Notes under the pieces: generated by a model
The model's input: the letters and a program-made list of their open reading frames with translations, nothing else
What the model was told of the DNA's origin: nothing
Database searches by the model: none
Source of the DNA: Bombiscardovia coagulans
GTDB taxonomy: Bacteria; Actinomycetota; Actinomycetes; Actinomycetales; Bifidobacteriaceae
Length of the DNA: 64,000 nt
Direction of reading: 5' to 3'
NCBI RefSeq assembly: GCF_002259585.1
Contig: NZ_MWWS01000002.1
Coordinates: 1 to 64,000 of the forward strand
Shown here: positions 4,867 to 27,041 of the stretch, piece by piece
Position numbering within the stretch: the first letter of the stretch is position 1
Layout of the letters: each line of letters starts with the position of its first letter
Position numbers and translations under genes: made by a program

Positions 4867-4928
4867 ACTCACACCTATGCCCGTAACGCATAGTACTAAG
4901 TAAGAACGCAAGGAAAGGAACAATAACC

Positions 4929-5126
4929 ATGAGCACGGTAGCATGTATCTTCATTAGTTTCATCGCAGGAATCATAGTAGGATTCATGACAGAAGGATTA
5001 GCAGCTGGAAATCGAATCTACAATCAACAACAAAACATCAATCAACTCACCAAACTTTGCGAAGATCAGCAGCATGAGATTAGTACGCACGATAGCGCCA
5101 GCCCTACTAACCCTTCCACCCTCTAA
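4929..5126 (+). CDS. Small membrane protein (65 aa)
   Basis: A single hydrophobic helix (ACIFISFIAGIIVGFMTEGL) is followed by a hydrophilic, Gln-rich tail with a short coiled-coil look. The ribosome binding site is strong (AAGGAAAGGA) about 9 bases before the ATG. It is divergent from the hydrolase gene. Similar one-helix proteins are common on phages and conjugative elements. No function can be assigned. The 5127-5488 interval after it holds no gene that I can support. Confidence 0.6.
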   Translation: MSTVACIFISFIAGIIVGFMTEGLAAGNRIYNQQQNINQLTKLCEDQQHEISTHDSASPTNPSTL

Positions 5127-12902: not shown

Positions 12903-13526
12903 ATCAAGTACACCTCCCAAACGGTTCCGTACAGACAAAATATTGGGAAGGCGAAGATCTCCGTGAACCGGTACATATGAATGCATATCATTTTTCTTAC
13001 AGGTTAATTCATCTAGGAACTCATCAATCTGTGACGTAAGTTGAGGATATTTAATACTAGCCTCTCTAGCGAACGCAATACGATTTTTACGTTCTGGAAG
13101 AGTAAAGGACTCATCTGGGAAAACGGATTTTGTTGCGTGCGAGTGAAAGTGCGACAGTTTGAACCCAAATTCTTCCCATTGAAACTGTTGGTCAGGTTGT
13201 TCACCTGGCAATTCTTCACACACCATGTAAGGAATACCAGATGACAGTGCGCCGATTTCTAAAATTCGTGGGGAAGGAAAATTTGCAAATCGAGCAGCAT
13301 CCATTATCTCTTTTTCGACAGACGGATTTATATTTGCGCTTATTCCGACCCTCACAACCAGTCCATCCCTGATAAGTACTAGACAATTGTTTCCATGTGT
13401 CATGATCAGAGACGAATCACTCTTCTTCCAGGAAAACTGCTTTAGTACCTCAGCAATAACTGTGTTGCTAAAAACGAACTTCGACTGTTCTTTACTCACC
13501 TTTCCATTCTTTAATAACAGATTCAT
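12876..13526 (-). CDS. Aminoglycoside/choline-kinase-like phosphotransferase, C-terminally truncated
   Basis: A 216-residue APH-fold kinase. The Brenner-type catalytic loop is PVHGDLRLPNIL near residue 187 and the metal-binding segment is GVLDWSD near 208. The start is ATG 13526, with an excellent AAGGAGGAAG site inside the end of the MFS gene (overlap 35 bases). APH proteins normally run 60-100 residues past the DWSD motif. Here the frame leaves the family after DWS, enters an excisionase remnant and ends TVPRM, so the enzyme is probably inactive. With the aminotransferase and MFS upstream it would have formed a three-gene small-molecule tailoring or resistance operon. Confidence 0.75.
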   Translation of the reverse strand: MNLLLKNGKVSKEQSKFVFSNTVIAEVLKQFSWKKSDSSLIMTHGNNCLVLIRDGLVVRVGISANINPSVEKEIMDAARFANFPSPRILEIGALSSGIPYMVCEELPGEQPDQQFQWEEFGFKLSHFHSHATKSVFPDESFTLPERKNRIAFAREASIKYPQLTSQIDEFLDELTCKKNDMHSYVPVHGDLRLPNILSVRNRLGGVLDWSDTVPRM

Positions 13527-14727
13527 CTGCTTCCTCCTTCCAATACTTACGCATAGGCCAAGCAAGAAGTGCAGCTATGAATGAAATCACAGCAGCCAGC
13601 AGAAAAGTCTCTCTAAAACCAAAATATGTAGTAACAATTCCAGCAGACTGTGAACCAATAGCTGACCCTATAACGCCGGCAGTGGTCATCCATGCGAAAG
13701 ATTGAGATCTATGGACACGATCAGAAGACCGAGCAATTAATGAATATTCCACTGCTGCGACCGGTGCAAAGCCTAAAGCTCCCAAGCCTAAAGCAAATGA
13801 CATACCCGTATAACTGTGAGCTAAAAGAGGAAGGGCCATCCCGATAGCAGATAGCAACAAACCCCAACAATATATTTGTTCTTTTGGCATCTTCCACTTG
13901 TGAAGGCCATATGCTATTCCTCCCAGAATAGAACCGATGCCTAAAGCAGAGTATAAAGAACCACTATATGCCTCTGAGCCAATCCAAATCGCAAAAGCAG
14001 GTATGGCCACATCATAAGCCCCATTGGATACTGCTTCGAGCATTCTTCTAACAAATAGTCCGATAAACCCTTTATTCTTAAACACACTAAGAGTATTTGC
14101 TATACTCCTATGCATTTTTGGTCCGGTGTCATGCTTGTAAAGAATAGCCGAACCCTTTTCATTTCTTATCCCTTTTGTTAAGGATAAAGAAACACTGCCA
14201 ACGACCACTAGTAAACCGCTGACCACTAAAGCTCGGGAGCTATCAGAAAAAAGCAACACAGTCGAAAGCAGTAGAGGACCAACAACTGATAACAGTTCGC
14301 CTGCAATAGATTCAATCGCAAAAGCAGGATCTTTGCTGTCCTCTGGTAACTTCGACCAATATGATCTAATTATCGAACTAATCGGAGGAGTAAAAAAACC
14401 AGCTATAAAGACCAATATGACGTTCAGAATTATGGCATTTTCCCCCACAGTGCTCAGGGAAAGCAGGCACAAACTCTGGACTACTCCTGTCAGCAGAAGT
14501 GTAAACGAGGAACCCTTTTTATCAGCGATCAAAGCGGTTATAATCCCACCAATGGCTCCCCCCACGTTAAAAAGTCCGACCATCAAACCGCTAATTATGA
14601 ACGAACTTCCGTTATTAGCCCATAGGACTAAAGCCAGATTAACCACGTACAGCGGTATACGACCGACGAATGCGAAAAAAAGAGGCCAACGCACTTCCGC
14701 ATTTTTAACTAACTCTAAATACTGCAT
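13492..14727 (-). CDS. MFS transporter
   Basis: A 411-residue major facilitator with about 12 hydrophobic helices. The loop between helices 2 and 3 carries ALIADKKGSS, the usual MFS G-x-x-x-D-x-x-G-R/K-like site. It would use the proton gradient to move a small substrate, probably outward given the modifying enzymes around it. The gene lies between the aminotransferase (20-base gap) and the phosphotransferase (35-base overlap). The ends look intact although both partners are damaged. The substrate is unknown. Confidence 0.8.
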   Translation of the reverse strand: MQYLELVKNAEVRWPLFFAFVGRIPLYVVNLALVLWANNGSSFIISGLMVGLFNVGGAIGGIITALIADKKGSSFTLLLTGVVQSLCLLSLSTVGENAIILNVILVFIAGFFTPPISSIIRSYWSKLPEDSKDPAFAIESIAGELLSVVGPLLLSTVLLFSDSSRALVVSGLLVVVGSVSLSLTKGIRNEKGSAILYKHDTGPKMHRSIANTLSVFKNKGFIGLFVRRMLEAVSNGAYDVAIPAFAIWIGSEAYSGSLYSALGIGSILGGIAYGLHKWKMPKEQIYCWGLLLSAIGMALPLLAHSYTGMSFALGLGALGFAPVAAVEYSLIARSSDRVHRSQSFAWMTTAGVIGSAIGSQSAGIVTTYFGFRETFLLAAVISFIAALLAWPMRKYWKEEADESVIKEWKGE

Positions 14728-14747: not shown

Positions 14748-15938
14748 CTATTTTCCGGTCAAAACGCCGACAATTCTATCGGCAAGTATTGTGGCTTCGT
14801 CTTCGGTAAATTGGGTTCCAATGACAAACACGCGATCCCACAGTTTCTTCTCACGTTCCATTAGCGCTTCTGTGGCATCATCCCACCACCCATGATAACT
14901 CATATAAGCGCGAATCCAGGGTGTGCAAATTAAAGATGAGTACTTCCACGCTGGGACGCCCTCGGCAACAAGTGCTTTAAGCAATTCATCACGATAGCCA
15001 CCCCACTCTTTATCGAGAATTACAGGAATATCAAACCAAGCTGGCTTGCAGTCGACCTCAGAAAATGGCACTGCATATTTTATACCAGCTTGATCAAAAC
15101 GATCCTGAAAGATACGAGCTGCTGCATTCCGAGAAGTGACTCTCTCTTTTATATCGCTTAAAGCATGAGAAGCAAGCACAGCTTCCATCTCCCCACCACG
15201 AAAATTATAGCCGGGTATTACTTCATTACCGTCTGAATTTTTTCCATGATGAGAATAAACTCTCATCGCCTCATTTAACCGTTCGTCATCGCATACATTT
15301 AGTCCACCTTGCCCTGCAGTTACAAGTTTCTTGTTGCTGCACGCGAATGACCCAACATCGCTATAGCTCCCAACTGGGCGATCATCGTAAAAAGCTCCAA
15401 GTGCCTGACCACCATCTTCTATTAGAAAAGTCTCATCCATGCATCCACAAGTAGCCGATATATCCACGATGTTACCGAAGAAATGAGTAATAATTGCAGC
15501 TCTAGGATGATTTGCCTTAATCTCTTTCTCTACATCTTGCTGAACTAGCATTGTGTTGGGATCTGTTGGAAGGAAGACGGGACGGCACCGGAGATGATAT
15601 ATGACATTTCAAGAAGCGATAAAGCCTGAACTAGTAACTGCTACCGAATCACCCTCATTGACACCTGAAGCAAATAAAGCCGTTTGTAGAGCAGCCGTAC
15701 CGGAATTATGGAAAAAAGCAAATTCTCTTCCCACATACTTCGCAAAGCTTTTTTCTAAAGAATGTGTTTTAGGTCCGCCGCCCCAATATTGGGTGTGGCC
15801 TGACTTTACAACTTCCGCCACTTCCAAAAAAGCTTGCGTATCAATTCCTGTGTCTTCTGTGATTCTCTTCTGAATTGTCGGAGATCCACCATTAATAATT
15901 AGATTGGGATTAGTTAGTACCTTGCTAGGAAGTAACAT
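14748..15938 (-). pseudogene. DegT/DnrJ/EryC1-type PLP aminotransferase with an in-frame TGA
   Basis: Two open frames, 15938-15612 and 15551-14748, lie in the same reading frame and together make one PLP-dependent sugar aminotransferase of about 396 residues. The N-terminal part has HTQYWGGGPKTHSLEKSFA and FFHNSGTAALQTAL. The C-terminal part has LIEDGGQALGAFYDDRPVGS and then SNKKLVTAGQGG with the PLP lysine. The only break is TGA at 15611-15609, between GFIAS and NVIYHLRCRPVFL. A Cys codon (TGC/TGT) would fit there. Most likely a recent nonsense mutation. The enzyme would have transaminated a keto-sugar for the adjacent operon. Confidence 0.85.
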
Positions 15939-16604
15939 TTTCTCACCATCTTTGTCTGAGGTTAATTCACAGTTAACTCTATCAACGCAGCTAACTACAA
16001 TTTGTTAAATTTAAAGCCTAGTTTTTAACTATGCTGCCTGTCAAATCAGTGTCCCAATAGTGCCATGCGCAAATCCTCGCAATGCCGGCAAAGGCTTTAC
16101 TTCGCGTCCAGGAATGCTGCAGACCATAACGAGTGACCTGGCCTATACCTGCAGCAATCAGGCATCGCTTTGGTGATGTGTGATTATCAGTGAATTTAAA
16201 ATGTAAGCCGTCAGCTCATTCACGGCCATTGCAATGAAAACACTCTCTGCCCGGATGGAATTCACCTTTTGTCCCTGTCTTTCGAGCGGTGTGAGAGGCA
16301 CTACTTCTGATAGAGAGAAGACCTGCTTATAAGTATCCGGCGAGCAGGATATACGAAGTTTAAAGAGGCCAAATTGTCGATAATAGTCGGTAGCGCGATT
16401 CCACAGGCCAGAATCATCACATGCGTCATTATTATCGAGTCAAACTCTGCCCTAGCCGAAGCCGAGGGCGCCATCTAAAAGTTAATCCAATCCATACCTC
16501 GTATTACTTGCCCCATATATTCTATTGTTCTGTCCAGCTTTAGTAGCTAAAATCTAATCGGGCACATTTCGGGCACATCGTATGTGCAGGGTCCCCCTCC
16601 GGGC
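15939..16604. other. Gap with degraded coding sequence
   Basis: About 660 bases without an intact gene. On the minus strand, around 16440-16150, a frame with protein-like composition can be followed (WNRATDYYRQFGLFKLRI and later ERQGQKVNSIRAESVFIAMA), with no start and several stops. It is probably the remains of a gene; I cannot name the family with confidence. Two GGGCACAT repeats at 16560-16578 precede the excisionase-like gene. Confidence 0.35.
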
Positions 16605-16790
16605 TCACTCCGGCCGCACCGTGTTGCGGCTGATAAGTGCCGCCACATCCTCGGGCCGGTATCTGACCAAACGCCCGATATGCACGTATGGAAGCCCGGT
16701 TTTCTGCGTCCTCCAGGCGTTGAGGGTGCTTATCGGTATCACCAGGATCTCGGCCGCCTCCGCAGGGGTCAGCAGCTTGAGAGGCGTCAC
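16605..16790 (-). CDS. Excisionase-like helix-turn-helix protein
   Basis: A 61-residue protein of the small MerR-type DNA-binding group (HTH_17): LLTPAEAAEILVIPISTLNA is the helix-turn-helix, and YVHIGRLVRYRPEDVAALI is the wing. Such proteins bind the attachment region and steer integrase toward excision. The start is GTG 16790; the ribosome binding site is poor. It is divergent from the dead integrase gene at 16922. A partial copy of its 3' half sits at 12841-12902. The DNA here is visibly GC-rich compared with its neighbours. Confidence 0.7.
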   Translation of the reverse strand: MTPLKLLTPAEAAEILVIPISTLNAWRTQKTGLPYVHIGRLVRYRPEDVAALISRNTVRPE

Positions 16791-16921
16791 GGCCTAGTTT
16801 TCATTCGTTGGTTTTTGTGTTTGGCTCATACCTGTTCCCATGCGTCAGCGTGCGCCGCCGTGAGTTGGTGCTGGGTTATCGCTAATTGGAATGAGTTGAT
16901 ATCTGACGCATAGAGGTTGGT

Positions 16922-18179
16922 ATGGCAAAAGCATGGATACATGACAAGTGGCTGAAGTCCGCCCAGGTCACGACGGCTGACGGACATCGCACGAAGATGG
17001 AACCCCCGCCATCGGCGAAGCATTCGCTGACGATGTTCGCCGACGAGCCGGGGAAAGCAAAAAGTGCCCGATGAATTCAAATCGAAGGACTACGGCAAAG
17101 GCGCGCGCTGGAGGGTTGACGGCACGGGCCGACGCAAGCTCTTCCGCTACCGGGCCGACGCCGAGGCGTTCATGGCCGAGATCGAGGACCGGATACGGTC
17201 GAACCAGTACATGGACCCCAAGGATTCATATAGACCGTTGCGGGAGGCTGCGGACCTCTGGCAGCAGGGTTTGACCAGTACGATCGGGGCTCGACCGAAG
17301 GACGCTACAGGCGGGAGCAGCGAGTGTGGGTCATGCCCCAATGGGGAGATGTCGCATTGAAGGACATATCCACGTCACGAATCCAGCACTGGTACGTCAG
17401 CCTGGCCGAAGGAACGGCGCCCTACGTGGGTGAGCGAGGCTCGGATTCCTCACTGTCTGCGTCCTCGATCCGGTCGGCCGGCAACATCGTGCTGGGCTCG
17501 ATCCTGGATGTGGCGGTGGAAAACCGTTGGATTGACGTCAATCCTGTAACCAAGGCCAGGGTGCCGCACACAGGGCCGTCCAACGGCGAATCTACCTGAC
17601 CCCGCAGGAGATCAAGATCCTGGCGGATCAGATGGACGCGGACAACGCCATGGTCGTCTACGTGCTTGCGTATACGGGAATGCGCATCGGCGAAGCTTTG
17701 GCTCTGCGGTGCGGTGATGTGGATTTGAACCGTAACCGGATCAACGTCCTGCGCACCCAATCGGTCGATGCCGACTCGCTCCTGATCGAGACATTGCCTA
17801 AAGGCAATAGAACAAGGTTCGTTCCCGTACCAAGCCGGCTCCTGCCGAAAATCAAGAACTTGTTTGGATGGCCATGGTCCCTAGGATTATCTGCTGCGCG
17901 GGCCGCGAGGAGGTAGGCAGACCACCACCAAATGGCGGAACAAGGTATGGGCGCCGGCCCTGCGGGACGCGGGCAGGCAGGATATCGAGGGCCTGGTCAT
18001 CCACTCCTTGCATCACACTTACGCTTCCCTGGCGATCAAGTCCGGCGCGGACGTGAAGACCCTGCAAGCCGTCCTGGGCCATGCCTCTGCTACCGAGACC
18101 CTAGACACCTACGCGGACCTATGGCCCAACCGAACCTGCGAGGTGGCCGAAGTCATCGGTCAGGATATCCAAATCTGAT
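16922..18179 (+). pseudogene. Tyrosine-recombinase integrase, multiply frameshifted
   Basis: Pieces of one bifidobacterial-type integrase are spread over several reading frames: start MAKAWIHDKWLKSA (16922), core-binding parts RRKLFRYRADAEAFMAEIED (17.1 kb) and WGDVALKDISTSRIQHWYVS (17.35 kb), catalytic domain YTGMRIGEALALRCGDVDL (17.67 kb) and LGHASATETLDTYADLW (18.08 kb). At least three frameshifts separate them. The conserved H-x-x-R box reads HSLHHTYAS, so the Arg is also lost. It cannot make an active enzyme. The sequence is GC-rich. It presumably once inserted the 12.7-26.2 kb island at the tRNA-like site. Confidence 0.9.
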
Positions 18180-18249
18180 ACGAAAGATTGCCGACAGCTG
18201 TTACAGAGCTGAACTGCAGTCAGAGTCTCACACGATCCTAATAGTAGAA

Positions 18250-18281
18250 GGTGCTTCTGCTTGGTCTTGTGCAGAAGCACC
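18250..18281 (+). terminator. Hairpin after the integrase remnant
   Basis: Perfect 11-bp stem (GGTGCTTCTGC at 18250-18260, complement at 18271-18281), 71 bases after the integrase stop. No T tract follows. Confidence 0.5.
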
Positions 18282-18341
18282 GTCATCTGAATTAGCTGCC
18301 TCGACTTTTCGGCGAGTAAGCACGAATGAGGTTTGATGCTA

Positions 18342-18485
18342 AGAAAGGCTGCTGTATGTGTACACATGCTAGCTGCCCTTAACTGTTGCTAATAACAACT
18401 GGAATACTGCCGATACTAGCACGTTCCGAATACTAACTGATACAAGCTGAAACGGGTACGTTAGTTTATCAATGTGCCCGATTGG
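18342..18485 (-). repeat. Inverted repeat, left arm (partner 26050-26201)
   Basis: The reverse complement of this 144-base segment matches 26050-26201 at roughly 95%. The main difference is a 9-base duplication of the GGGCACAT unit in the right arm. Together the arms bracket the RiPP operon. Confidence 0.85.
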
Positions 18486-18755
18486 ATTTGCCACCTTCAT
18501 TGTTGCTCCTGATTGGGATTGCTTCCCCCGGCACATTCTCCGAATCACAAGCCAGAAAACCACAGACCTAAGACTTCGAAAGGACTTTGTTCTATTATAC
18601 GAAACCTTTGCGCTGTGGCAGGAACGCACACACATCCCAAGAGATTCGCTAACACACTCTTCGGTCTGCCCAGGCTGCCGAACAAATCGGCGGCAATCTT
18701 TCTCAACTCTTCCATCTGACAAGCATAACCAAAGCACCAAATTCAGTTCCTATAG

Positions 18756-18775
18756 CCCCCCCCCCCCAAAAAAAA
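18756..18775 (+). repeat. Poly(C)-poly(A) tract
   Basis: Twelve C followed by eight A in a region with no gene. Other long C or G runs occur at 25495-25504, 31144-31152, 31410-31421 and 49261-49270. Confidence 0.8.
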
Positions 18776-18827
18776 TGGGGCTTTGACTTACAATAAACTA
18801 GCTGAATTGAACCAAAAAGGTGAAACC

Positions 18828-18965
18828 CGATCGGGCACGCTGATATATTAACATGTCTGATGCACTTCGCATCAGTTATTTGTGGGAGCAAGCTAGTGTT
18901 GCGATATTCCGAAAATTTTCAGCAGCGGTTAAGGGCAGCTTACACACTTTCAGCTGCCCTTCGCA
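18828..18965 (+). repeat. Diverged third copy of the inverted-repeat sequence
   Basis: This stretch follows the same order of short blocks as the right arm at 26050-26180 (ATCGGGCAC, CATCAGTTAT, GGTTAAGGGCAGCT) with many substitutions. It is about 350 bases from the left arm and in the opposite orientation to it. The interval 18180-19078 contains no supported gene. Confidence 0.5.
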
Positions 18966-19078
18966 ACAGCAAATCTTGGAGGATCAGGACGACAATATTG
19001 GCGTGAGACCGAATCTTCTTCGCCTAGTTGATGATGCAAAAGGTGCTGATTGTTCTCAAAGCACACGAACTAATATCA

Positions 19079-19612
19079 TCAATGCATATGCGGTGCAGCT
19101 AATAGGCTAGGCACGTAATCGATACAATTCTGTTTTTGTACCGGCATATTTAAATGCTTCCCTTCCTTTTGCAAGCTTTCGGCACCGTCCCACAGGTCTA
19201 AAAGATTACTTGGCCAAATTGTATCGGTTGTTCTCACCAATTCTTCTTTAGTCCACCATCTTATTTCTTTGATTACTTGTTTCTCTTCGTCAGTAAAGCT
19301 TGCAATATCAGGTGTGTTTAACGCAACAGTGACATAATAATATTGTTCAAAATGTTGTGCTTCACGATTGCGATAGATGTGCGTAGCCTGTCTGACACCA
19401 ATAAAATTCTCACGAAGAGTCTGTTGTTGTACAGTTACGCCAGTTTCTTCCTTGATTTCACGAACTGCCGCAAATTCAAAAGATTCGCCAGGCTGCACAC
19501 CACCACCAACAGTAATCCACCATGGATCTTCATTGGGGTCTCCTTTATTACATAAAAGGAGAATTTTTGTCATTTTTCGATTGAAAAAAAGGACCCTAGC
19601 GCTGCTACGCAT
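19079..19612 (-). CDS. NUDIX hydrolase
   Basis: A 177-residue hydrolase with a complete Nudix box, GGVQPGESFEFAAVREIKEE then TGV (about residues 38-60). It would cleave a nucleoside diphosphate linked to another group. It is the last gene of the RiPP operon and overlaps the methyltransferase gene by 8 bases. In this setting it could remove nucleotide by-products or process a nucleotidylated intermediate made by the nucleotidyltransferase upstream; that link is inference. The C-terminal 30 residues are not part of the Nudix fold. Confidence 0.85.
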   Translation of the reverse strand: MRSSARVLFFNRKMTKILLLCNKGDPNEDPWWITVGGGVQPGESFEFAAVREIKEETGVTVQQQTLRENFIGVRQATHIYRNREAQHFEQYYYVTVALNTPDIASFTDEEKQVIKEIRWWTKEELVRTTDTIWPSNLLDLWDGAESLQKEGKHLNMPVQKQNCIDYVPSLLAAPHMH

Positions 19613-20315
19613 TTTGTCTTTCTCCTCTTGATAGCTCTACGATAGAAGTTGGCAGTACATGTTTATCAGAAACGTCATCCCAATTGAATGCTAGATACAA
19701 TTGCCTGAGTCGTTTTAACGAGCTTAGTATATGTCCGTTTGCGGAGCAGCGTTTTAACATGCGATATTGGTTTTTTAGGATAAGCCCCTGTTCTTGGGCG
19801 CATTCTTTCACAGCTGTCAAATGGAAACCGAAAACGAGTATAAGCAAAATCCCATCTTCGGTTAGGGCTTGGTGAGCGCTATGAATAACGTATTCCATCA
19901 TGTCAAAACCTGACATTCCTGCTACATCATGATCCCACTGCTCATCATCAGATTGCGCTGGCATCTGTGCAGGGTTGCTGACAATACAATCGAAATAGCT
20001 GTCGGGAATTGTTGTTGTCCTTATATCTTCGTTCAATACTCGGCACTTATAGGGGAAGCTCTGCTGTAAGTGCTCACACGCGTCAGGGTTCTTTTCGAGA
20101 AGTGTTACTTCCCAGCCGAGTTGCGCAAATGCGCTGCCGATTATCCCGTAATAGCCTGCGCCAATATCTAATACACGACCAGGAGGCAATAATTCCAATC
20201 TGGGTTTAATTGCGTTTACGAAATCGATGCCGCTGCTCGGCAACTTCGCCTTTTCGTTTAACGGCATTTGTTTGCCACCAGGTAGGTTAACTACTTCAAA
20301 TCGATTTGCTGGCAT
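19605..20315 (-). CDS. Class I SAM-dependent methyltransferase
   Basis: A 236-residue Rossmann-fold methyltransferase. Motif I is RVLDIGAGYYGIIGSAF near residue 45, followed by an acidic residue in VTLLEKNP. The catalytic-pocket motif is SNPAQMP, close to the NPPY motif of PrmC-type N-methyltransferases that act on side-chain amides, but not identical. A peptide or small-molecule acceptor is therefore plausible. It lies 17 bases after the kinase-like gene and overlaps the NUDIX gene by 8 bases. It is likely a tailoring enzyme of the RiPP operon. Confidence 0.8.
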   Translation of the reverse strand: MPANRFEVVNLPGGKQMPLNEKAKLPSSGIDFVNAIKPRLELLPPGRVLDIGAGYYGIIGSAFAQLGWEVTLLEKNPDACEHLQQSFPYKCRVLNEDIRTTTIPDSYFDCIVSNPAQMPAQSDDEQWDHDVAGMSGFDMMEYVIHSAHQALTEDGILLILVFGFHLTAVKECAQEQGLILKNQYRMLKRCSANGHILSSLKRLRQLYLAFNWDDVSDKHVLPTSIVELSRGERQNA

Positions 20316-20332
20316 AATTTATCCTGTCTCCT

Positions 20333-21226
20333 TTAGTTGTAATACGAAATCCACTCTTTATCAGAAAGTCCAACTTGCTTCGAGAGAGAGCATAGATTGT
20401 TGAATACTAACTCCGCGCTGTTGTCTCCAAGAAGCTGCACCGCTTGCCAATAGTCTTCGAGGCCTAATGAATATTGTACTTTGTCCAAAACTTTAGACGG
20501 GTAGTAAACCATATCATCCAAACACCTCGCATGAGATGCTTGTAATATTTTTTGATCTGCCTCAAGATAAGTCATTTTTGAATACGAGTTTCTTAACTGG
20601 CAATACTTTTTGCGTCTACTGCTCTTTCCTAAACAATCCGTTATGAAAGCAGAGCACTTCGAATGAAGACATGGAAGATTATACGACGATATAAAATGTG
20701 TGGATTCAGGAACTAGTGCCGCAATTTCTTCGATTGGATGACCGTGCACCCACAGATTGGGGCATAAGCCCTTTGTATTGACTACGTTTCGCTCAAAATC
20801 TACCAACATAATTCGATTTTTGTTTGCCTGCATTATTATGTTTCGGGGGGCAAAGTCTAGCCATCCGATCCCGGATACATTTAGTGCATCGACGAGAGAG
20901 AAACAAATAATAGCTCCATAGAATCTTACTTCAGGATTTGCGTCGAGAAGTAAGTTTTCGACAGTTGTCCCATCAATAAACTCCATCTTTATCGTTTGAT
21001 GGTTTATTACCTTCATTGCCGGTGTTAAAACCGGTTGGCCGCATACTCGAATCTGAGCTGCATTGAGCATACCTGTAATTTTCTCATAACCTTCGATTTC
21101 TTCTTGAGAGACATGCTTGTTTACAAAACTCGAAGCGAAAGTGACGGAATCTGATTCGTCACCGAAGAGCTCAGCGGGACCTGAGCAAAATTCTCCAAAC
21201 ACTGTGTCACCCCTATGCTCAATCAA
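20333..21226 (-). CDS. Atypical kinase-fold protein of the RiPP operon
   Basis: A 297-residue protein with protein-kinase-like landmarks: a possible beta3 Lys and alphaC Glu region (SFVNKHVSQEEIEGYEK), a hinge (IKMEFIDGTTVENLL), the catalytic loop WLDFAPRNIIM (D-x4-N, near residue 143) and the metal motif VDFERN in place of DFG. This resembles Bud32/RIO/APH-type small kinases. The start appears to be TTG at 21226 directly after the TAA of the HprK-like gene, so translation is probably coupled. The C-terminal third is unrecognised. Its target is unknown. Confidence 0.6.
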   Translation of the reverse strand: MIEHRGDTVFGEFCSGPAELFGDESDSVTFASSFVNKHVSQEEIEGYEKITGMLNAAQIRVCGQPVLTPAMKVINHQTIKMEFIDGTTVENLLLDANPEVRFYGAIICFSLVDALNVSGIGWLDFAPRNIIMQANKNRIMLVDFERNVVNTKGLCPNLWVHGHPIEEIAALVPESTHFISSYNLPCLHSKCSAFITDCLGKSSRRKKYCQLRNSYSKMTYLEADQKILQASHARCLDDMVYYPSKVLDKVQYSLGLEDYWQAVQLLGDNSAELVFNNLCSLSKQVGLSDKEWISYYN

Positions 21227-22171
21227 TTATGAACTAATCTCAGAAATAATCTGCACGATATTGTCTCTTTGTCGGTCTCCGCCATCGTAAAGTCCCAAAT
21301 CACCATATAAATGCAAACAGTTGACCCCTGAGATTAGTTCTAGAATGGGGAAACTGCTTGGGAAGAAAGGTCGAAGTTTTGGCTCGAATCCAGGCGACAA
21401 GTAATCGTCAAGTGCAGATACTACTCCAAGTCCATCCATGGGTTCGAAAACTGCGGGAGTCTGCTTGGCGTGGTCCAACAAAATGATGCTAGATATTAGA
21501 GAATACGGTAAGCACTTTGTGCCATACATTTCAGCGAAATCATTCGACCAAATATGAAGTTTCCCATTTTCTTCATCGTGAGCGTGTCGATGTGAAAGTG
21601 AGTCTGCATAACTTGCAATAACCTTTACGGAACTCGGTAAACCCACTGCAGCTGTAGAACTACCCATTTTCTTCATTATGAACTTATCATTAGCAATAAG
21701 CTGTCCGCCGTTTTGCAGCAATGACGTTAGGGTTGTTGTCTTACCTGCACCCTTAGGACCAGTTAATACCAACGTCGATTCACCCATCTTGACCACGGCA
21801 CCATGTACAGGCGCTGTAGATGTTGGATAGTTTAGCAATTCGCTAAGCACGATTGCGGATCTGATCTGTCTCACTAAAGTGAGATTCCCGTCTATTCCTG
21901 GATGAATCTTTGACTCAATATAAAAATATGTCTTGTGTGACTTTGTTTGAGTATCAACTTCATCAATACGTGAAGTTCGTGTTGTCTTCGACACATTCAA
22001 GTTAACGAATGAGGCGATTGACTCTTCGTTGGGTACTTCAGTGGCGGTCAGATAGGGCTTCCACGCTGTGACCAGATCGCCAATCTTTTCGATTGGATAA
22101 CCAGTTACAGCACAATTGCTGCTTAAGCCTGGTATCGAGCAAAGAATTTTTTGACTATTGCCGTTATTCAT
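21227..22171 (-). CDS. HprK-like kinase (PqqD-associated type)
   Basis: A 314-residue kinase related to HPr kinase/phosphorylase. The signature region is PVHGAVVKMGESTLVLTGPK followed by GAGKTT, a P-loop near residue 140. LIANDK then stands in place of the acidic LLxDD segment of HprK. Kinases of this group occur in RiPP clusters; in paeninodin-type lasso clusters the relative phosphorylates the C-terminal serine side chain of the precursor. The 26-residue precursor here also ends in Ser. The gene overlaps the MFS gene by 8 bases and abuts the second kinase gene. Confidence 0.8.
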   Translation of the reverse strand: MNNGNSQKILCSIPGLSSNCAVTGYPIEKIGDLVTAWKPYLTATEVPNEESIASFVNLNVSKTTRTSRIDEVDTQTKSHKTYFYIESKIHPGIDGNLTLVRQIRSAIVLSELLNYPTSTAPVHGAVVKMGESTLVLTGPKGAGKTTTLTSLLQNGGQLIANDKFIMKKMGSSTAAVGLPSSVKVIASYADSLSHRHAHDEENGKLHIWSNDFAEMYGTKCLPYSLISSIILLDHAKQTPAVFEPMDGLGVVSALDDYLSPGFEPKLRPFFPSSFPILELISGVNCLHLYGDLGLYDGGDRQRDNIVQIISEISS

Positions 22172-23393
22172 TCAAAGAACCTTCCTGAATCCACTTCCAC
22201 ACAGAAATTGATAGTAGAAAAAAGCAGATCGAAGCGATATATGGAACAAGTGACATTGGGCCGAAAGATGCAATTAATGCTGTAACTAGTGGACCGACAG
22301 GAGCCCCTAAATGCGTAACGAACTTGTATGATGCCTGGAACTGGGCCAGATCATGCGCAGGGACGATGTTCTGTCTAAGGGTTCCGTTCGCAATAACATA
22401 AAGAGTGGCCCCAAAGGAATCCATAACGACGTATGCAATACACTCAGATACTTTTAGCGGCAATGAAGAATTCTGGAGGATGGGTAATAGTAGAATAGTC
22501 GGAATCTGTATTAGAATCCCGAACAATAGTGATCTTTGAAATCCGAAATATTCTGTGAAATGTGGAGCCAATAACGCCGCAGCTATCCCGCCCAACGATC
22601 CCAGAGACAAGATTACTGCGTATTGATGTCCATTCAATCCCATGCTTCTCAAAACAATGAGAGGGAAACAGGTCATCAAGGCGCTTGCAATTGCGTTATA
22701 CAAGAATGTGTTGAGCGTAATTTTCCTTAGATTGTTGTTTGTTAGCAGCAATCTAAAGCCCCAAGAAATTTCTTTAAGCTTACTCCTCCCGCTATCATTG
22801 TGCTCGGCTGCCCCGTGATTGCGAACCAAAAATGACCCCACAAAACTGATAAAGAAAGTTAGTGAGTTAAAAAAGAATGCACCCGCTGTGTTAAATACAT
22901 TCACAACCCATGACCCCAGTGGCGGCCCTGTTATTCTAGAGACTGACTCCGACAACGACATTCTCGAGTTGGCTGTGATGCGATCGTCATCGCAAACAAG
23001 ATATATGGGCGCCGTGTACACTAAAGTCGAGAAGATACGTCCCAAACATTCTGTCACAATGATTATCGCAACAAATAACGTTAAGGACATGACGTGTTTA
23101 ATCCATAAACAGCCGCATAATACGTAAAGGATTCCACGGGCAAAATCTAAAACAGCCGTTGTTACGAATACATTATATTTCTTGATAAGTGGAACAACCA
23201 CAAGTGGTATTACTATAGTTATCGCTTGCACAAGTGAGTTCACCATAGATAAATACTCTGCACTCACTGAGTATCCGGTTATCAGAACCATTGTCCAGAC
23301 AAAATCATTCGCTTCGTCACCAACCATAGATAACGATTGACTTATCCAAAACTCATTGAATGCTCTAGGGAGCCTATGCTTGATCAGTTTCAT
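22164..23393 (-). CDS. MFS exporter of the RiPP operon
   Basis: A 409-residue major facilitator with about 12 transmembrane helices (start KHRLPRAFNEFWISQSLSMV). It resembles the DHA-type efflux proteins that often accompany peptide antibiotics. It sits in the middle of the operon and overlaps both neighbours (4 bases with the nucleotidyltransferase, 8 with the HprK-like gene), so it is made in step with the modifying enzymes. It is the likely exporter or immunity pump, because no ABC transporter is present in the operon. Confidence 0.85.
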   Translation of the reverse strand: MKLIKHRLPRAFNEFWISQSLSMVGDEANDFVWTMVLITGYSVSAEYLSMVNSLVQAITIVIPLVVVPLIKKYNVFVTTAVLDFARGILYVLCGCLWIKHVMSLTLFVAIIIVTECLGRIFSTLVYTAPIYLVCDDDRITANSRMSLSESVSRITGPPLGSWVVNVFNTAGAFFFNSLTFFISFVGSFLVRNHGAAEHNDSGRSKLKEISWGFRLLLTNNNLRKITLNTFLYNAIASALMTCFPLIVLRSMGLNGHQYAVILSLGSLGGIAAALLAPHFTEYFGFQRSLLFGILIQIPTILLLPILQNSSLPLKVSECIAYVVMDSFGATLYVIANGTLRQNIVPAHDLAQFQASYKFVTHLGAPVGPLVTALIASFGPMSLVPYIASICFFLLSISVWKWIQEGSLNE

Positions 23394-24202
23394 GCGTCAG
23401 CTAACTGTTCTTTCAAATCTTCCAGCATGTCGTAAGCGAGTTGAGATAAATGTTGGGAAAAGCTCATTCTTTCAGCTGCTTTAGCAAGAATCTCTGATGT
23501 CTCAATCGAACAGTCAATATCTTTTTCGAGAATGGAAATTGACAATTCAGGAGAATAAGCAGCAACTTTTTCATACCGCCATTTTGGCTTATTGTTTGTT
23601 GACCCTTTACATGCGAGATATGCGTCAACTGCATCGGCTAATGCTGCGCGTGATTGCAGCATTGCGGTTCCCGACTGGCGGCTTTCAATGGCGCCAAGAG
23701 CGTCATTATAGTCTTCATGCCAGTTAAGTAATGCTCTGCTCGCTATCACGCATGATATGCGTCTTACATCTATCTGTAGCCTATATAAATTGAATACTTC
23801 TTCTCCGGCCAATGGGACACCTATGACTAAGCGGTGCAAAAATTGCAGCTCACCATTCGTTAAATTCCGGAAAGCGCCGTCATCATTAGCTATATCGAGT
23901 AGTCTGAGTTTATCAACGATTTCTTTTAATCGTCGCTGTGTCAAATGCTCCGTATCGACAATTGCATCACCTTCACATTCAACTTCAGCTTGCGCACCCG
24001 TAGAATTAGTGAAAAGCGCATTTCGAATTGGTGCTTCTTTTTCGTGAATAGCAAACAAGTCGATGTCAGATGTTTCGTTAGCAAATCCCTCAATGAATGA
24101 ACCTGAGACGTATACGAATAGACAATCGGAAGACAGAGCGAGGAGTGCGTTCTGAATCGGATTAATAAATTTTGAGGGAATTCTATTATCGAGCGTTAGC
24201 AT
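23390..24202 (-). CDS. Nucleotidyltransferase (Pol-beta superfamily)
   Basis: A 270-residue protein whose N-terminal domain carries the nucleotidyltransferase signature YVSGSFIEGFANETSDIDLF: G-S, then D-x-D, at about residues 33-50. A third acidic residue may lie in EAQVECEGDAI-like sequence nearby. The C-terminal two-thirds is helical, like kanamycin-type or MNT-like enzymes. Such genes are recurrent accessories of lasso-peptide clusters with HprK-like kinases. It could add a nucleotide to peptide phosphate or hydroxyl. It overlaps CPBP by 7 bases and MFS by 4. Confidence 0.8.
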   Translation of the reverse strand: MLTLDNRIPSKFINPIQNALLALSSDCLFVYVSGSFIEGFANETSDIDLFAIHEKEAPIRNALFTNSTGAQAEVECEGDAIVDTEHLTQRRLKEIVDKLRLLDIANDDGAFRNLTNGELQFLHRLVIGVPLAGEEVFNLYRLQIDVRRISCVIASRALLNWHEDYNDALGAIESRQSGTAMLQSRAALADAVDAYLACKGSTNNKPKWRYEKVAAYSPELSISILEKDIDCSIETSEILAKAAERMSFSQHLSQLAYDMLEDLKEQLADA

Positions 24203-24831
24203 TTCTGGTCCTTAAGATACGGAATTTTGAAGTAAAGGATGGTATGTGGCAAGTTAACCAAAAAATGGAAAAAGCATGCTGCTCCGAGAGTGCCGCCATA
24301 CAAGACAATGATGGATGCGACAAGTCCGACCAGCGCTTGCAGGCAATAATCTGATATCCTCCACTTCCTGCCTGATTCGAATTGCACGACATGTTCGAGG
24401 ACGAATAACAGTGAACTAATAATTGCTATCAAGTATGCCGGAAGGAGCTCCTGCAGTACTACGACTAATGATCCTCTGTAAAACAACTCTTGGAACGGGC
24501 CTGCAAGGACTTGGAAACCAGCCTGTCGATACTTTTCAACCCTGCTCTTGTAGGGAGGATATAATTCGGGGCTTCCCGGGGCAAGTATCATAACCATGCT
24601 CTTGTACTGGACGAGTGAAAATAAGACAGCACAGATAATCGCTGCTAAAAATCCCGCAAAGCTGTTGCTGCCTTTTGGACTACCAGTTATACAGAGGCCC
24701 AATAAATATGGGAAAAGTCTGATAGCTGGCCTCAACCATTTCCTAAACCTAAAATGAGCTGTCCATCTGAGATGAGAATGGTTAATGCTTAGAATCGCCG
24801 CATAGATAACGGTCACCACTAATACTCGCAT
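24196..24831 (-). CDS. CPBP-family intramembrane metalloprotease
   Basis: A 211-residue membrane protein with about six hydrophobic segments. CPBP (CAAX protease and bacteriocin-processing) motifs are visible: motif 1 PFQELFYRGSL (E-x3-R, with Q instead of the first Glu), motif 2 FVLEHVVQF, and motif 3 FFHFLVNLP (H-x3-N). CPBP proteases are linked to bacteriocin maturation and self-immunity. Since no transglutaminase-like lasso protease is present, this enzyme is the best candidate for leader removal. It starts 6 bases after the PqqD gene and overlaps the nucleotidyltransferase gene. Confidence 0.8.
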   Translation of the reverse strand: MRVLVVTVIYAAILSINHSHLRWTAHFRFRKWLRPAIRLFPYLLGLCITGSPKGSNSFAGFLAAIICAVLFSLVQYKSMVMILAPGSPELYPPYKSRVEKYRQAGFQVLAGPFQELFYRGSLVVVLQELLPAYLIAIISSLLFVLEHVVQFESGRKWRISDYCLQALVGLVASIIVLYGGTLGAACFFHFLVNLPHTILYFKIPYLKDQKC

Positions 24832-24837
24832 GAAGAA

Positions 24838-25113
24838 TTATAAATTCTCTTGAAGCGTTATTAAGTGGTTCTTTTTCAATTCGCCAAGGAATTCTACTAC
24901 GTCTTGAACAACTTGGTCAGATTCTTCATCATACGCTGAGGCTATTGCTCTTGCTATGTCTTCTACGCTTGCGATGCCGTCAATTTTCGACCAAATTTCA
25001 CGACCTAGTTCATTCAATTCAAAACCACAACTTTCGCGAATTAGAAAAGCACTTTTGCCGACACGGTTATAACGCACACGTAAGTCAGCTTTTGGAACCA
25101 CATTGATGTCCAT
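24838..25113 (-). CDS. PqqD-family RiPP recognition element
   Basis: A 91-residue protein of the PqqD/RRE fold: a beta-rich start (DLRVRYNRVGKSAFLIRESC) and three helices (ELNELGREIWSKIDG, SVEDIARAIASAYD and QVVQDVVEFLGELKK). RRE proteins bind the leader peptide and present it to tailoring enzymes. It follows the precursor gene after a 77-base gap that contains a hairpin. In lasso systems the equivalent is B1, which reads a Y-x2-P leader motif; the precursor here has YQKP. Confidence 0.85.
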   Translation of the reverse strand: MDINVVPKADLRVRYNRVGKSAFLIRESCGFELNELGREIWSKIDGIASVEDIARAIASAYDEESDQVVQDVVEFLGELKKNHLITLQENL

Positions 25114-25131
25114 ATTGACCTTCTCTCAAAA

Positions 25132-25172
25132 TGCCGACGAGCGTAGTTAATAACTCACTGTGCACGTCGGCA
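25132..25172. promoter_or_regulatory. Intercistronic hairpin between precursor and PqqD genes
   Basis: TGCCGACG (25132-25139) pairs with 25165-25172 in an 8-bp stem, extended by a GC pair after one mismatch, with a long loop. There is no full T tract. It may act as a partial terminator, giving more precursor than enzyme transcript. Confidence 0.5.
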
Positions 25173-25190
25173 AACCATTTATGCCACTAG

Positions 25191-25271
25191 TTACGACAGG
25201 ATCATACTTGCAGCAGTCAGAGCTACGGGCTTAATCGCCGGCTTCTGATACTTCTTCTTGAACTTCATCAT
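25191..25271 (-). CDS. Short RiPP precursor peptide (26 aa)
   Basis: A 26-codon gene with the strongest ribosome binding site of the region (GAGGAGGTGAGCACC before ATG). It begins with two Met codons and a Lys-rich segment. Residues 8-13 read YQKPAI, matching the Y-x2-P-x-hydrophobic motif bound by RRE proteins of lasso systems. Thr19 is followed by Ala20, and the last six residues are ASMILS. If cleavage falls two residues after the conserved Thr, as in lasso leaders, the core is only ASMILS, too short for a lasso ring. The terminal Ser is a possible target for the HprK-like kinase. Product class unknown. Confidence 0.75.
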   Translation of the reverse strand: MMKFKKKYQKPAIKPVALTAASMILS

Positions 25272-26049
25272 GGTGCTCACCTCCTCTCATAGGGTGGTTG
25301 TTTTAAAAAATAGCAGTACTTCGTGTTGAGGCTTGCCATCGTTCCAAATAATGGACATTTTCTAAGAATGTGTCGATTTCGATTGACGACTATTCGATCA
25401 CCCTGAAGGTATGGTTTGACGCGATCTGTCATAGCCTGTAGTACCGCAAGATCGCATTTTTACGATTAATGTCATTGATATTGGTGTGTTGGGTGGGGGG
25501 GGGGCGTTACCGCCCCCACCCAACACACCAATATGATTTATAATTCCAGCAAGAGGAATTGCTTGCGCTAGAGCCTTCGATCGATCAGAGCTTTTCTGGA
25601 GTAATATTAACGACATCTACGATCAGGGAGAAATCTCGAATCCTGTACGGACACTACGCATAGGCCCTGAGCATCGACAATCGCTGGATGGTCAGTTCAG
25701 AAAAAATGCATTCTCTAACCGGCGGTGTTTGACTCTTGCATTAGGCAATCGTAAATTATTGCTTTGTAGCGGTCCGAGAATGATACGGGGCTGCCGCCCC
25801 GAGCCCTGCCGAGCTGGATCAGCTCGACCATTCTGCTAACGCACTGTTTTCCGGTCGTTACGCAATCGGAAAACAGCTTGCCCCTCATGATGTAGGGTCC
25901 ACAGATTGTCTTGACACATTTAATACCATTGACCAGATTACGAGCAATCATTGTTGCCGTTTGGAGTTCGGCACTGCCAACTGCCTTTGTGCTGTGCTCA
26001 ACCAAAGCTGTAGTTAGTCATCATCTGGGCGTGACTATTTTCCAATAAT
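25272..26049. other. Upstream region of the RiPP operon
   Basis: No gene that I can support. Near the precursor, the minus strand has a possible extended -10 (TGCTATTTT, about 25307-25315) about 40 bases before the ribosome binding site. Further out are the 22-bp hairpin and an open frame at 26005-25715 (minus) with a TTG start and no ribosome binding site. I regard that frame as chance or a remnant. Confidence 0.4.
25478..25534. repeat. Large perfect hairpin with G/C-run arms
   Basis: A 22-bp perfect inverted repeat: 25478-25499 pairs with 25513-25534 (core GGTGTGTTGGGTGGGGG). The spacer continues the G run (10 G at 25495-25504). It sits about 200 bases upstream of the RiPP precursor gene. 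It lacks a T tract, so it is not a classical terminator. Confidence 0.85.
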
Positions 26050-26201
26050 CAATCGGGCACATTTCGGGCACATTGATACACTAACGTACCCGTTTCAGCT
26101 CGTATCAGTTAGTATTCGGAACGTGCTAGTATCGGTAGTATTCCAGTCGTTATTAGCAATAGTTAAGGGCAGCTAGCATGTACACGTACAGCAGCCTTTC
26201 T
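26050..26201 (+). repeat. Inverted repeat, right arm (partner 18342-18485)
   Basis: A 152-base segment matching the reverse complement of 18342-18485. It ends 3 bases before the tRNA-like repeat at 26205. It includes two GGGCACAT units like those beside the excisionase-type genes. Confidence 0.85.
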
Positions 26202-26204
26202 CAA

Positions 26205-26225
26205 CAAGGGGTCGCGGGTTCAAAT
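26205..26225 (+). repeat. Attachment-like 21-bp direct repeat (partner 12700-12720)
   Basis: Identical to 12700-12720 over 21 bases, including the T-loop-like GGGTTCAAAT. Downstream the similarity becomes imperfect (CACCGACCCG against CGCCGGCCCG), followed by a TTGG-type hairpin at 26244-26260. The pair defines a 13.5-kb island. Confidence 0.75.
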
Positions 26226-26272
26226 ATCACCGACCCGTCAAAGGGTTGGAATACCAACGGTTTTTAAACCCT

Positions 26273-26312
26273 ATCTTTCGTTCTTAAAATCTCCTAGGGA
26301 CATTCAGGGGAC
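26273..26312 (+). repeat. Direct repeat of the 33861-33903 junction
   Basis: ATCTTTCGTTCTTAAAATCT and the following GGGGACATTCAGGGGACA-like sequence recur at 33861-33903 with two or three differences. The two copies delimit a 7.6-kb segment. Confidence 0.75.
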
Positions 26313-26434
26313 AATAATGAAGCCGCGCGCCCATGCTTCTTCATCGGCACATGGCACACCGAGCAATGTCTGGCCCTCTTCGATCTGGTTCTTATGAACC
26401 AATCGAAAAGGACACCACATCCCCGGCAAACCAT
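26294..26434 (-). CDS. Possible small zinc-ribbon protein (46 aa)
   Basis: A 46-codon frame beginning MVCRGCGVLFDWF with a second Cys pair in HCSVCHVP, so two C-x2-C knuckles that could hold one zinc ion. The ribosome binding site is poor. The last codons are formed by the island-junction repeat. It may be the N-terminal part of a gene cut by the junction. Low confidence that it is expressed. Confidence 0.3.
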   Translation of the reverse strand: MVCRGCGVLFDWFIRTRSKRARHCSVCHVPMKKHGRAASLLSPECP

Positions 26435-26583
26435 ATTAATATCACGGGTTATTAGTATGCCCCCCTCACACAAGACACCCACTCCCACACGGCCAAAATT
26501 GACATATCATATAATCTGTCATTTTTTTGGTAACCTTGTTATACGCTAACCTACGTATTTCATTTTCACCAATGGAGGTTAAT

Positions 26584-27041
26584 ATGCTTGACGATACAAG
26601 ATTGGCACCCACAGCCAAGAAAATAGTTATCCGCTTAGTCACAGTGTTTCTTTCCGCACTGGCCTGCATGGCACTCATACTACCTACTGCAGCCCATGCG
26701 AGCGTTTTGTAGAGCGAACAAGCTGCCGCACCAATAACTGAGGAAGATGTTCAACGTGGACTTGACATCATCATGAAGCACACTACTGGCAGTGATGGAA
26801 AATTCAATTACACAGAACTCATCAATGCAGAAGTAGCTGCCCTTATCGCCATCGAATATGCTGGTGTACTCGAAGCAGTGCATGAGCAGTATACAGCCCG
26901 ACCCCCTCGTTCCGCCCGAGATTATGCATGCTGCTGACAGCTACCGAGAATCGGTTTAGATTGTGAAAAAATCCGTAGGCTTTACCGCCATGGGATTCAA
27001 TTGGGGCAAAAGTGTTGCGGAGCTGCAAGGTATACGTTGAA
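26584..27041 (+). pseudogene. Secreted-protein gene, degraded
   Basis: The ATG at 26584 has a good site (GGAGG) and encodes a basic start and a clear signal peptide (FLSALACMALILPTAAHA). Four codons later is TAG (26710-26712). The same frame then continues with SEQAAAPITEEDVQRGLDII and TELINAEVAALIAIEY up to about 26890. There the frame shifts, and the sequence PPEIMHAADSYRESV and GFTAMGFNWGKSVAELQGI follows in another frame with one more stop. The product would have been an exported protein of about 150 residues, possibly a bacteriocin-like protein given the small gene that follows. The family is unknown. Confidence 0.6.

Follow-up and report, generated by a model that had tools for sequence, protein, structure and literature searches.

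What does an operon make when it carries the tailoring genes of certain lasso-peptide clusters without the enzymes that close and release the lasso? Such an operon lies in a 64,000-nucleotide stretch of Bombiscardovia coagulans (contig NZ_MWWS01000002.1, positions 1 to 64,000; hereafter the window), one part of a genome of 1.74 Mb in 15 contigs that is 99.5% complete and holds a phosphoketolase match in a frame of 829 residues, as fits Bifidobacteriaceae. On the minus strand, positions 19079-25271 hold an open reading frame (ORF) for a 26-residue precursor peptide and eight close-set enzyme genes, ~6.2 kb in total. The explanation towards which we lean, if only slightly, is that the operon arrived by horizontal transfer and produces a short ribosomally synthesized and post-translationally modified peptide (RiPP) that is linear and no lasso, in the manner of the 'linear polyphosphorylated peptides' (LPPs), published in 2026 from Bacillota, whose gene sets combine a RiPP recognition element (RRE), an HprK-like kinase, an NTP transferase and a transporter, with no cyclase (PMC13381572). 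The direct evidence comprises the gene content, the compact gene order, the sequence motifs, the absence of cyclase and B2 protease, and recurring associations of RRE with HprK-like kinase and of RRE with nucleotidyltransferase (NTase) and CPBP genes; each chemical step, phosphorylation included, the cleavage site and the function, be it antagonism or signalling, we infer.

A preliminary description of this DNA, made from its letters alone, had claimed nine ORFs on one strand that overlap or nearly touch, and all nine were confirmed in position, with gaps of -8, +17, 0, -8, -4, -7 and +6 nt within the eight-enzyme block and the precursor stop codon 77 nt upstream of the start of the PqqD gene, a spacing from which co-transcription of the nine is probable. 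A consensus promoter scan returned 17 sites against 16.3 in shuffles, no excess, and an Rfam scan of 16000-27000 gave no match at E<=0.1. Profile searches with each protein recovered the families that had been named, Pfam E-values being 3.8e-15 for PqqD, 8.1e-11 for the CPBP/Rce1-like protein, 9.2e-5 for NTP_transf_2 (over its cut-off), 3e-25 for the MFS transporter, 5.8e-7 for the methyltransferase (MTS) and 5.8e-19 for NUDIX; the HprK-like kinase stayed under its cut-off and the second kinase was weakly recognized, its top NCBIfam match being the Kae1-associated kinase Bud32 (E 1.1e-4, far under cut-off), with kinase-like D-x4-N and DFE motifs present. For the methyltransferase, the top NCBIfam matches fall in the PRK14968/PrmC-like group, again under cut-off. 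The motifs of the Nudix box, the P-loop, the NTase and the kinase D-x4-N/DFE are intact, the exception being the first Glu of the CPBP motif.

The lasso cyclase and the B2 protease, found missing beside an otherwise lasso-type tailoring set in the preliminary description, are missing from the genome as a whole. Its one match to PF00733 is an ordinary AsnB starting MCGII, which scores 496.5 bits with TIGR01536, above its cut-off of 267.1, and 217.7 bits with the lasso-cyclase model, below its cut-off of 525; PF13471 (the B2 protease, Transglut_core3) has 0 matches. The search for a cyclase elsewhere in the genome, the finding that was to overturn the earlier proposal, ended with none. The precursor is moreover without any Asp or Glu and, because it has no acidic residue, a lasso isopeptide ring cannot form on it.

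What the precursor (MMKFKKKYQKPAIKPVALTAASMILS, 26 residues) does offer is a leader for an RRE. Its start codon is preceded by a strong Shine-Dalgarno sequence (GAGGAGGTGAGCACC-ATG), and it carries Y8-x2-P11-x-I13 (YQKPAI), a form of [Y/W]xxPx[L/V/I/F/A], the leader motif bound by discrete RREs (PMC13381572). Start codons opening ORFs of 20-80 residues number 2307 in the window, 13 of them with GGAGG upstream, and the precursor ORF, with two alternative ATGs, is the sole GGAGG-led small ORF of the 64 kb with a [YW]xxPx[LIVFA] motif. The tail holds T19-x2-S22 and ends AASMILS, with Ser26 at the C-terminus. In LPPs, the leader is cleaved after T-1, LppK phosphorylates core S3 and the core of LppA begins AQS (PMC13381572); T19-A-A-S22 has this same spacing of cleavage after Thr and a phosphorylated Ser3, the start AQS is comparable with AAS here, and the core is predicted to be AASMILS, of 7 residues.

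The PqqD-type RRE has residues that fit such a leader. Residues 25-87 align gap-free with the PbaB1 chain of 9x90, and when the numbering of LppB (9x8z) is transferred through the paired residues given in PMC13381572 (F83/F74, Q79/D70), the 9x8z stretch being equal in length, N34, Y61, D71 and F75 correspond to LppB N33, Y60, D70 and F74, the residues that hold the leader Tyr and Pro, with D70 being the Asp that holds the Tyr (PMC13381572). Of 20 aligned RREs, 18 share the Asp at its position and 16 the Asn. These residues are therefore consistent with a Tyr-type leader without singling out LPPs, which is consistency and not proof.

The HprK-like kinase matches the Pfam HPr kinase C-domain with E 6e-5 (23.1 bits against a cut-off of 33.3) and aligns with HPr kinase over the His, the P-loop and the Asp. 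It is far from the curated models (TIGR04352, 18.7 bits against a cut-off of 200), and the NCBIfam search lists no TIGR04353 match to the RRE. That the two proteins belong together is supported by their recurrence as a pair. A profile built from the window and Nonomuraea RREs matched 27 of 394 genomes of the class at E<=1e-6, in 28 places, own genome included, and 15 of the 20 regions fetched around these places hold a protein matching either of two HprK profiles (E<=1e-3); for all 8 of those 15 proteins that were tested, HprK_rel_A was the top NCBIfam match, under cut-off in each case. RRE and HprK-like kinase are, on these profile matches, a recurrent pair in this class of bacteria. By profile, NTases of the window type (P0006), CPBP proteins of the window type (P0007) and signal peptidase I (SpI) were found in 0 of the 20 regions. 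The neighbourhood survey proposed earlier bears out the RRE and kinase association; a window-type CPBP beside RRE and NTase turned up, in the sets searched, in three Nonomuraea genomes. One locus of the same order (L127; G023:C2:2500-17500), where an RRE adjoins an HprK_rel_A-like kinase and an AsnB-type frame (4e-56), may be a cluster of lasso type or a related one.

Those three genomes hold relatives of the other two proteins. By blastp, the best match to the NTase is in Nonomuraea longispora (L014; 31% over 208 residues, 74 bits), followed by a Streptomyces (L008, 72 bits), N. gerenzanensis (L009, 71), [Actinomadura] parvosata, of the genus Nonomuraea (L015, 68), L074 (68) and L073 (66). 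Beyond the window, 15 NTase loci were examined, from 3 plasmid records, 1 viral contig, 3 genome contigs and 8 of the 16 places in the class outside the own genome; an RRE lies near the NTase in five, namely L008, L009, L014, L015 and L073. All five also hold an AsnB-like gene, recognized by annotation in L008, by Pfam in L009, through homology for L014 and L015, and in L073 by eye. In the three Nonomuraea loci, these genes are joined by one for a thymidylate-kinase-like protein and one for a CPBP protein, which shares QELFYRG, EH and HxxxNLxP with that of the window (QELFYRG, FVLEH, HFLVN). A CPBP profile including the Nonomuraea rows found no locus beyond these three and the window in the sets searched, and a solved-structure search with the CPBP protein gave no match. 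Presence and absence of both families come from profile searches that recovered the window genes at 1.2e-106 and 2.3e-92, along with known relatives. Two further relatives of the NTase lie in other settings: on a viral contig (L013, IMGVR_UViG_3300031884_000002), an NTase fragment adjoins a frame related to the window NUDIX, and in Paenibacillus polymyxa ISL-58 (L016), a related NTase adjoins a kinase-like ORF in a biosynthetic cluster that is, by eye, of deazapurine type.

The gene set of the window is rare among the sets searched. The HprK-like kinase was found in the own genome and as 4 weak matches in 248 genomes of the order, the NTase in the own genome only, both in the 189 family genomes (16 genera) and in 396 genomes of the phylum, and the second kinase in the own genome with 1 weak match in 182 phylum genomes. 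Viral contigs had 0 loci with the HprK-like kinase, 0 with the second kinase and 1 with alignment A1; genome contigs searched with alignment A2 gave 3 loci; phages had no match to the HprK-like kinase; and plasmids gave 4 weak records for the HprK-like kinase, 3 records for the NTase, and no match to the second kinase or the RRE. PqqD matches occur in 21 of the 189 family genomes, own included (22 matches), and in none of the 20 other genomes listed from the same genus.

It is within this family that loci of the published LPP layout appear. We fetched 13 regions around the 22 PqqD matches; the NTase and CPBP profiles match 0 of them, an SpI-like peptidase lies near the RRE in 9 (adjacent in 8, with an ABC gene between in L046), and an HprK-like kinase occurs somewhere in the region in 6. 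In L042 (G020:C19:1500-17500), SpI, RRE, ABC transporter and HprK-like kinase are consecutive, with a YxxP ORF (MMKKDYETPSAQ...) ~5 kb away amid genes that look by eye like glycosyltransferases; its SpI scores 24.6 bits with the archaeal-type signal peptidase I model (cut-off 51.85), and its HprK-like protein reaches no NCBIfam model at E<=1e-4. L043, L046 and L048-L050 likewise combine RRE, SpI-like peptidase and HprK-like kinase, several with an ABC transporter, and a YxxP precursor is present in L042 and L046. A three-row profile of the window kinase with L010 and L011 aligns with five LPP-like HprKs of this family over 66 columns (hhalign 95.5%, E 1.5e-8). LPPs have been called 'restricted to the Bacillota' (PMC13381572); these gene sets suggest that LPP-like loci exist outside it, in the window's own family.

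Taken as such a pathway, the operon would work as follows. The RRE would bind YQKPAI and present the C-terminal part of the precursor to the enzymes, whereupon the HprK-like kinase would phosphorylate, perhaps polyphosphorylate, a Ser; candidates are Ser22, which belongs to the LPP-like TxxS, and Ser26 at the C-terminus, the kind of site targeted by the paeninodin kinase (PMC9266682). The NTase could then put a nucleotidyl or sugar-phosphate group on that phosphate. PsmN is required for hexoses on phosphorylated pseudomycoidin (PMC9266682), whereas no effect of LppN was visible when the LPP genes were expressed (PMC13381572). The second kinase, the methyltransferase and the NUDIX protein may tailor, trim or detoxify the product. 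Cleavage behind Thr19, for which the CPBP protein is the simplest candidate, would free AASMILS from the leader, and the MFS protein would export it.

Several observations weigh against this explanation. The precursor, at 26 residues, is shorter than the 35-200 reported for LPP precursors, keeps of the LPP consensus YxxPxVLxHQxIxFETxxS only YxxPx[I] and TxxS, has a Tyr-to-Thr distance 4 residues shorter than that consensus, and has no homologue in the loci compared; TxxS itself arises in 13% of tail shuffles, so that its presence is a hint only. The nearest outside relatives of the HprK-like kinase (L010 and L011) lie in clusters without PqqD, and no RRE was found near the NTase in the other 10 of the 15 loci, among them L074, which is nearly as similar as those that have one. 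With one NTP_transf_5 protein that adjoins an HprK-like gene, the window NTase has no recognizable kinship (hhalign 1.6%), and a scan of the three Nonomuraea RRE-CPBP-NTase loci showed no YxxP precursor. Single-sequence AlphaFold models of the HprK-like and second kinases had a mean predicted local distance difference test score (pLDDT) of 31.7 and 36.0, too low for use. Finally, the first Glu of EExxxR is Gln in the window CPBP protein, where MroQ has the critical Glu141.

This last point bears on the alternative that has fared best, one compatible with all other parts of the explanation, namely that the CPBP protein is an immunity or scaffold protein and that the leader is cut by another protease or kept, which we regard as a serious possibility although short of an even one. 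The preliminary description had suggested that the CPBP protein could replace the missing protease, and precedent makes such a leader peptidase plausible by analogy, as the CPBP protein MroQ removes the AgrD leader (PMC10482373). In MroQ, both Glu residues of EExxxR are critical, the Glu141Ala variant being attenuated like an agr deletion (PMC10482373), and the Gln at the first motif position therefore makes catalysis by the window protein uncertain. SkkI is a bacteriocin immunity CPBP protein, and AbxI and SpdC need no protease residues (PMC10482373); against this, SkkI does need proteolytic activity (PMC10482373), the CPBP gene sits between the RRE and NTase genes, and CPBP proteins of the QELFYRG subtype are found alongside RRE and NTase in the three Nonomuraea genomes.

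A different view of the whole operon is that its product is a metabolite, either a small molecule or of nucleoside type. The RRE would then handle a carrier or small substrate together with the NTase and kinases, as may happen in the Nonomuraea and Streptomyces clusters with RRE, NTase, kinase and AsnB, and the 26-residue ORF would be incidental or a carrier. The five RRE and NTase loci hold, besides AsnB-like genes, other metabolic genes, relatives of the HprK-like kinase and the NTase occur in clusters of 7-deazaguanine or pyrimidine type, and the lack of a YxxP precursor in the three Nonomuraea loci is the main evidence for a non-peptide product. Such metabolic genes were not seen in the window operon, however, and a well-formed YxxP ORF with its Shine-Dalgarno sequence stands directly upstream of the RRE; we consider the metabolite unlikely. 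Somewhat more doubtful is a phospho- or nucleotidyl-peptide antibiotic like microcin C, in which a peptide of ~7 residues would receive its warhead from the NTase, be exported by the MFS protein and be kept harmless to the producer by NUDIX, all built on an RRE-bound leader. A predicted 7-residue core, an NTase, an MFS protein and a complete Nudix box do meet in one operon, yet the NTase is of polymerase-beta type as opposed to the ThiF-like MccB, and the proposed likeness is one of gene content. Joining this to the favoured LPP-like pathway, one could speculate, with less assurance still, about a RiPP class of its own: a heptapeptide that would be (poly)phosphorylated under RRE guidance, next receive a nucleotidyl or glycosyl-phosphate group, be released by CPBP as an intramembrane protease, exported by MFS and neutralized in the producer by NUDIX, a leader-dependent analogue of microcin C on a mobile cassette. 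A lasso peptide with its cyclase encoded elsewhere, to which the shared tailoring genes of paeninodin and pseudomycoidin clusters would point (RRE, HprK-like kinase and NTase; PMC9266682), is ruled out for practical purposes by the genome search and the lack of Asp and Glu in the precursor, and only another, unseen precursor could rescue it.

We also considered an anti-phage defence system and rejected it: five of the eight proteins have partial PADLOC matches, one each (NUDIX, 1.1e-5; methyltransferase, to mad2, 8.6e-16; second kinase, 7.9e-4; HprK-like kinase, to mad8, 1.1e-4; NTase, 2.4e-3), which do not sum to one named system.

How the operon came to be here is suggested by its borders (Table 1). 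Besides the long terminal inverted repeat there is a further 28-nt inverted pair (18337-18364/26179-26206), and beyond the arms the repeat is found in the genome only as one diverged partial copy at 18823-18940. Beside the left arm, a frame at 17632-17916 matches Phage_integrase, and adjoining frames, which match nothing in Pfam, read by eye like the remainder of a tyrosine integrase; an HTH_17 protein is encoded there too, the integrase pieces and HTH_17 lying within 16605-18336; positions 17001-18000 have a GC content of 60.7% against 44% for the window. A stretch resembling a tRNA 3' end near 26208 was noted by eye only, and ARAGORN found no tRNA. From these features, the cassette looks acquired, with its integrase broken. 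The hairpin upstream of the operon is a candidate terminator or insulator.

Table 1. Coordinates of the operon genes and flanking elements in the window.
Feature	Position	Strand	Evidence or remark
Terminal inverted repeat, left arm, 118 nt	18364..18481	+	96% complementary to 26064-26181
NUDIX hydrolase, 177 residues	19079..19612	-	Complete Nudix box
S-adenosylmethionine-dependent methyltransferase, 236 residues	19605..20315	-	Pfam; NPAQMP at 114
Second kinase-like protein, 297 residues, TTG start	20333..21226	-	Weakly Bud32-like
HprK-like kinase, 314 residues	21227..22171	-	H123, P-loop GPKGAGKT (138-145), ND162K
MFS transporter, 409 residues; candidate exporter	22164..23393	-	Pfam
Polymerase-beta-type NTase, 270 residues	23390..24202	-	Pfam; active-site motif GS..GFANETSDID
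CPBP/Rce1-like membrane protein, 211 residues; candidate leader peptidase or immunity protein	24196..24831	-	Pfam, motifs
PqqD-family discrete RRE, 91 residues	24838..25113	-	Pfam, NCBIfam, structure alignment
Precursor peptide ORF, 26 residues	25191..25271	-	Strong Shine-Dalgarno, RRE-binding motif
Hairpin, 25-nt arms rich in G/C runs (96% complementary), 7-nt loop	25478..25534		z -7.8; between precursor and right arm
Inverted repeat, right arm	26064..26181	-	Pairs with left arm

Elsewhere in the window, 3622-4944 encodes a protein with phage tail lysozyme and CHAP domains, and the 679-residue product of 10476-12515 contains a C5-cytosine DNA methylase domain. A DegT/DnrJ aminotransferase at 14748-15551, matched from profile position 103 and probably truncated, adjoins an MFS gene (13492-14727), and a protein of ~670 residues at 31709-33721 has a weak, under-cut-off match to a Card1-like endonuclease and is a possible defence gene.

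If our explanation holds, phosphorylated linear RiPPs would extend from Bacillota to the bifidobacterial family, an intramembrane CPBP protein would be proposed as an RRE-guided leader peptidase, and a core of RRE, HprK-like kinase and NTase would seem to tolerate the exchange of leader peptidase and exporter as modules. The small operon (~6.2 kb) with its 26-residue precursor makes the role of the NTase in such systems directly testable.

Among known systems, the microcin C genes encode the heptapeptide MccA, the ThiF-like MccB and the MFS protein MccC, and the polymerase-beta-type NTase of the window is unlike MccB. The Nonomuraea clusters have the best NTase match (L014), the only CPBP matches found and the same CPBP motif set, but in place of the HprK-like kinase of the window they carry a thymidylate-kinase-like protein with a P-loop, together with AsnB and other metabolic genes. 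The HPr-rel-A system (NCBIfam TIGR04352/TIGR04353) pairs a PqqD-type RRE with an HprK-related kinase, as does the window, although the window proteins do not reach its models and the 20 related RRE regions have no CPBP or NTase of the window type; we found no literature on 'HPr-rel-A' or 'HprK-related kinase' in a search that covered few subscription papers, and within the same limits no paper linking a CPBP protein and an RRE to RiPPs and, apart from the LPP paper, none that named such a gene set. With the paeninodin and pseudomycoidin clusters, the window has RRE, HprK-like kinase and NTase in common, and it differs in having no cyclase, B2 protease or precursor Asp/Glu.

The closest likeness is to the LPP operon of Paenibacillus alginolyticus (lpp), with which the window shares a discrete RRE with the Tyr-binding Asp, a YxxP leader, an HprK-like kinase, an exporter, TxxS at the border of leader and core, and the absence of a lasso cyclase. 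Both also have an NTase, LppN being an NTP transferase and the window enzyme polymerase-beta-type, a likeness by presence alone. Where lpp has a SipW-like SpI, the window has a CPBP protein, no operon gene being assigned to SpI in a search confined to the operon, and where lpp has an MsbA-like ABC exporter, the window has MFS; the LPP-like loci of its own family differ likewise, with their SpI-like peptidase, an ABC transporter in several, and no match to the NTase or CPBP profile. Beyond LPPs, the window adds a second kinase, a methyltransferase and NUDIX, a 26-residue precursor and a host outside Bacillota. It agrees with LPPs in RRE, leader motif and kinase and departs from them in peptidase, exporter and consensus, and we liken it to LPPs without filing it as a member. 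The undescribed RiPP class of the preliminary description must accordingly be narrowed, since RRE, HprK-like kinase and NTase without a cyclase are the published LPP set (PMC13381572); what is new is the combination, with a CPBP protein in place of signal peptidase, MFS in place of the ABC exporter, three extra enzymes and a 26-residue precursor, between 118-nt inverted repeats.

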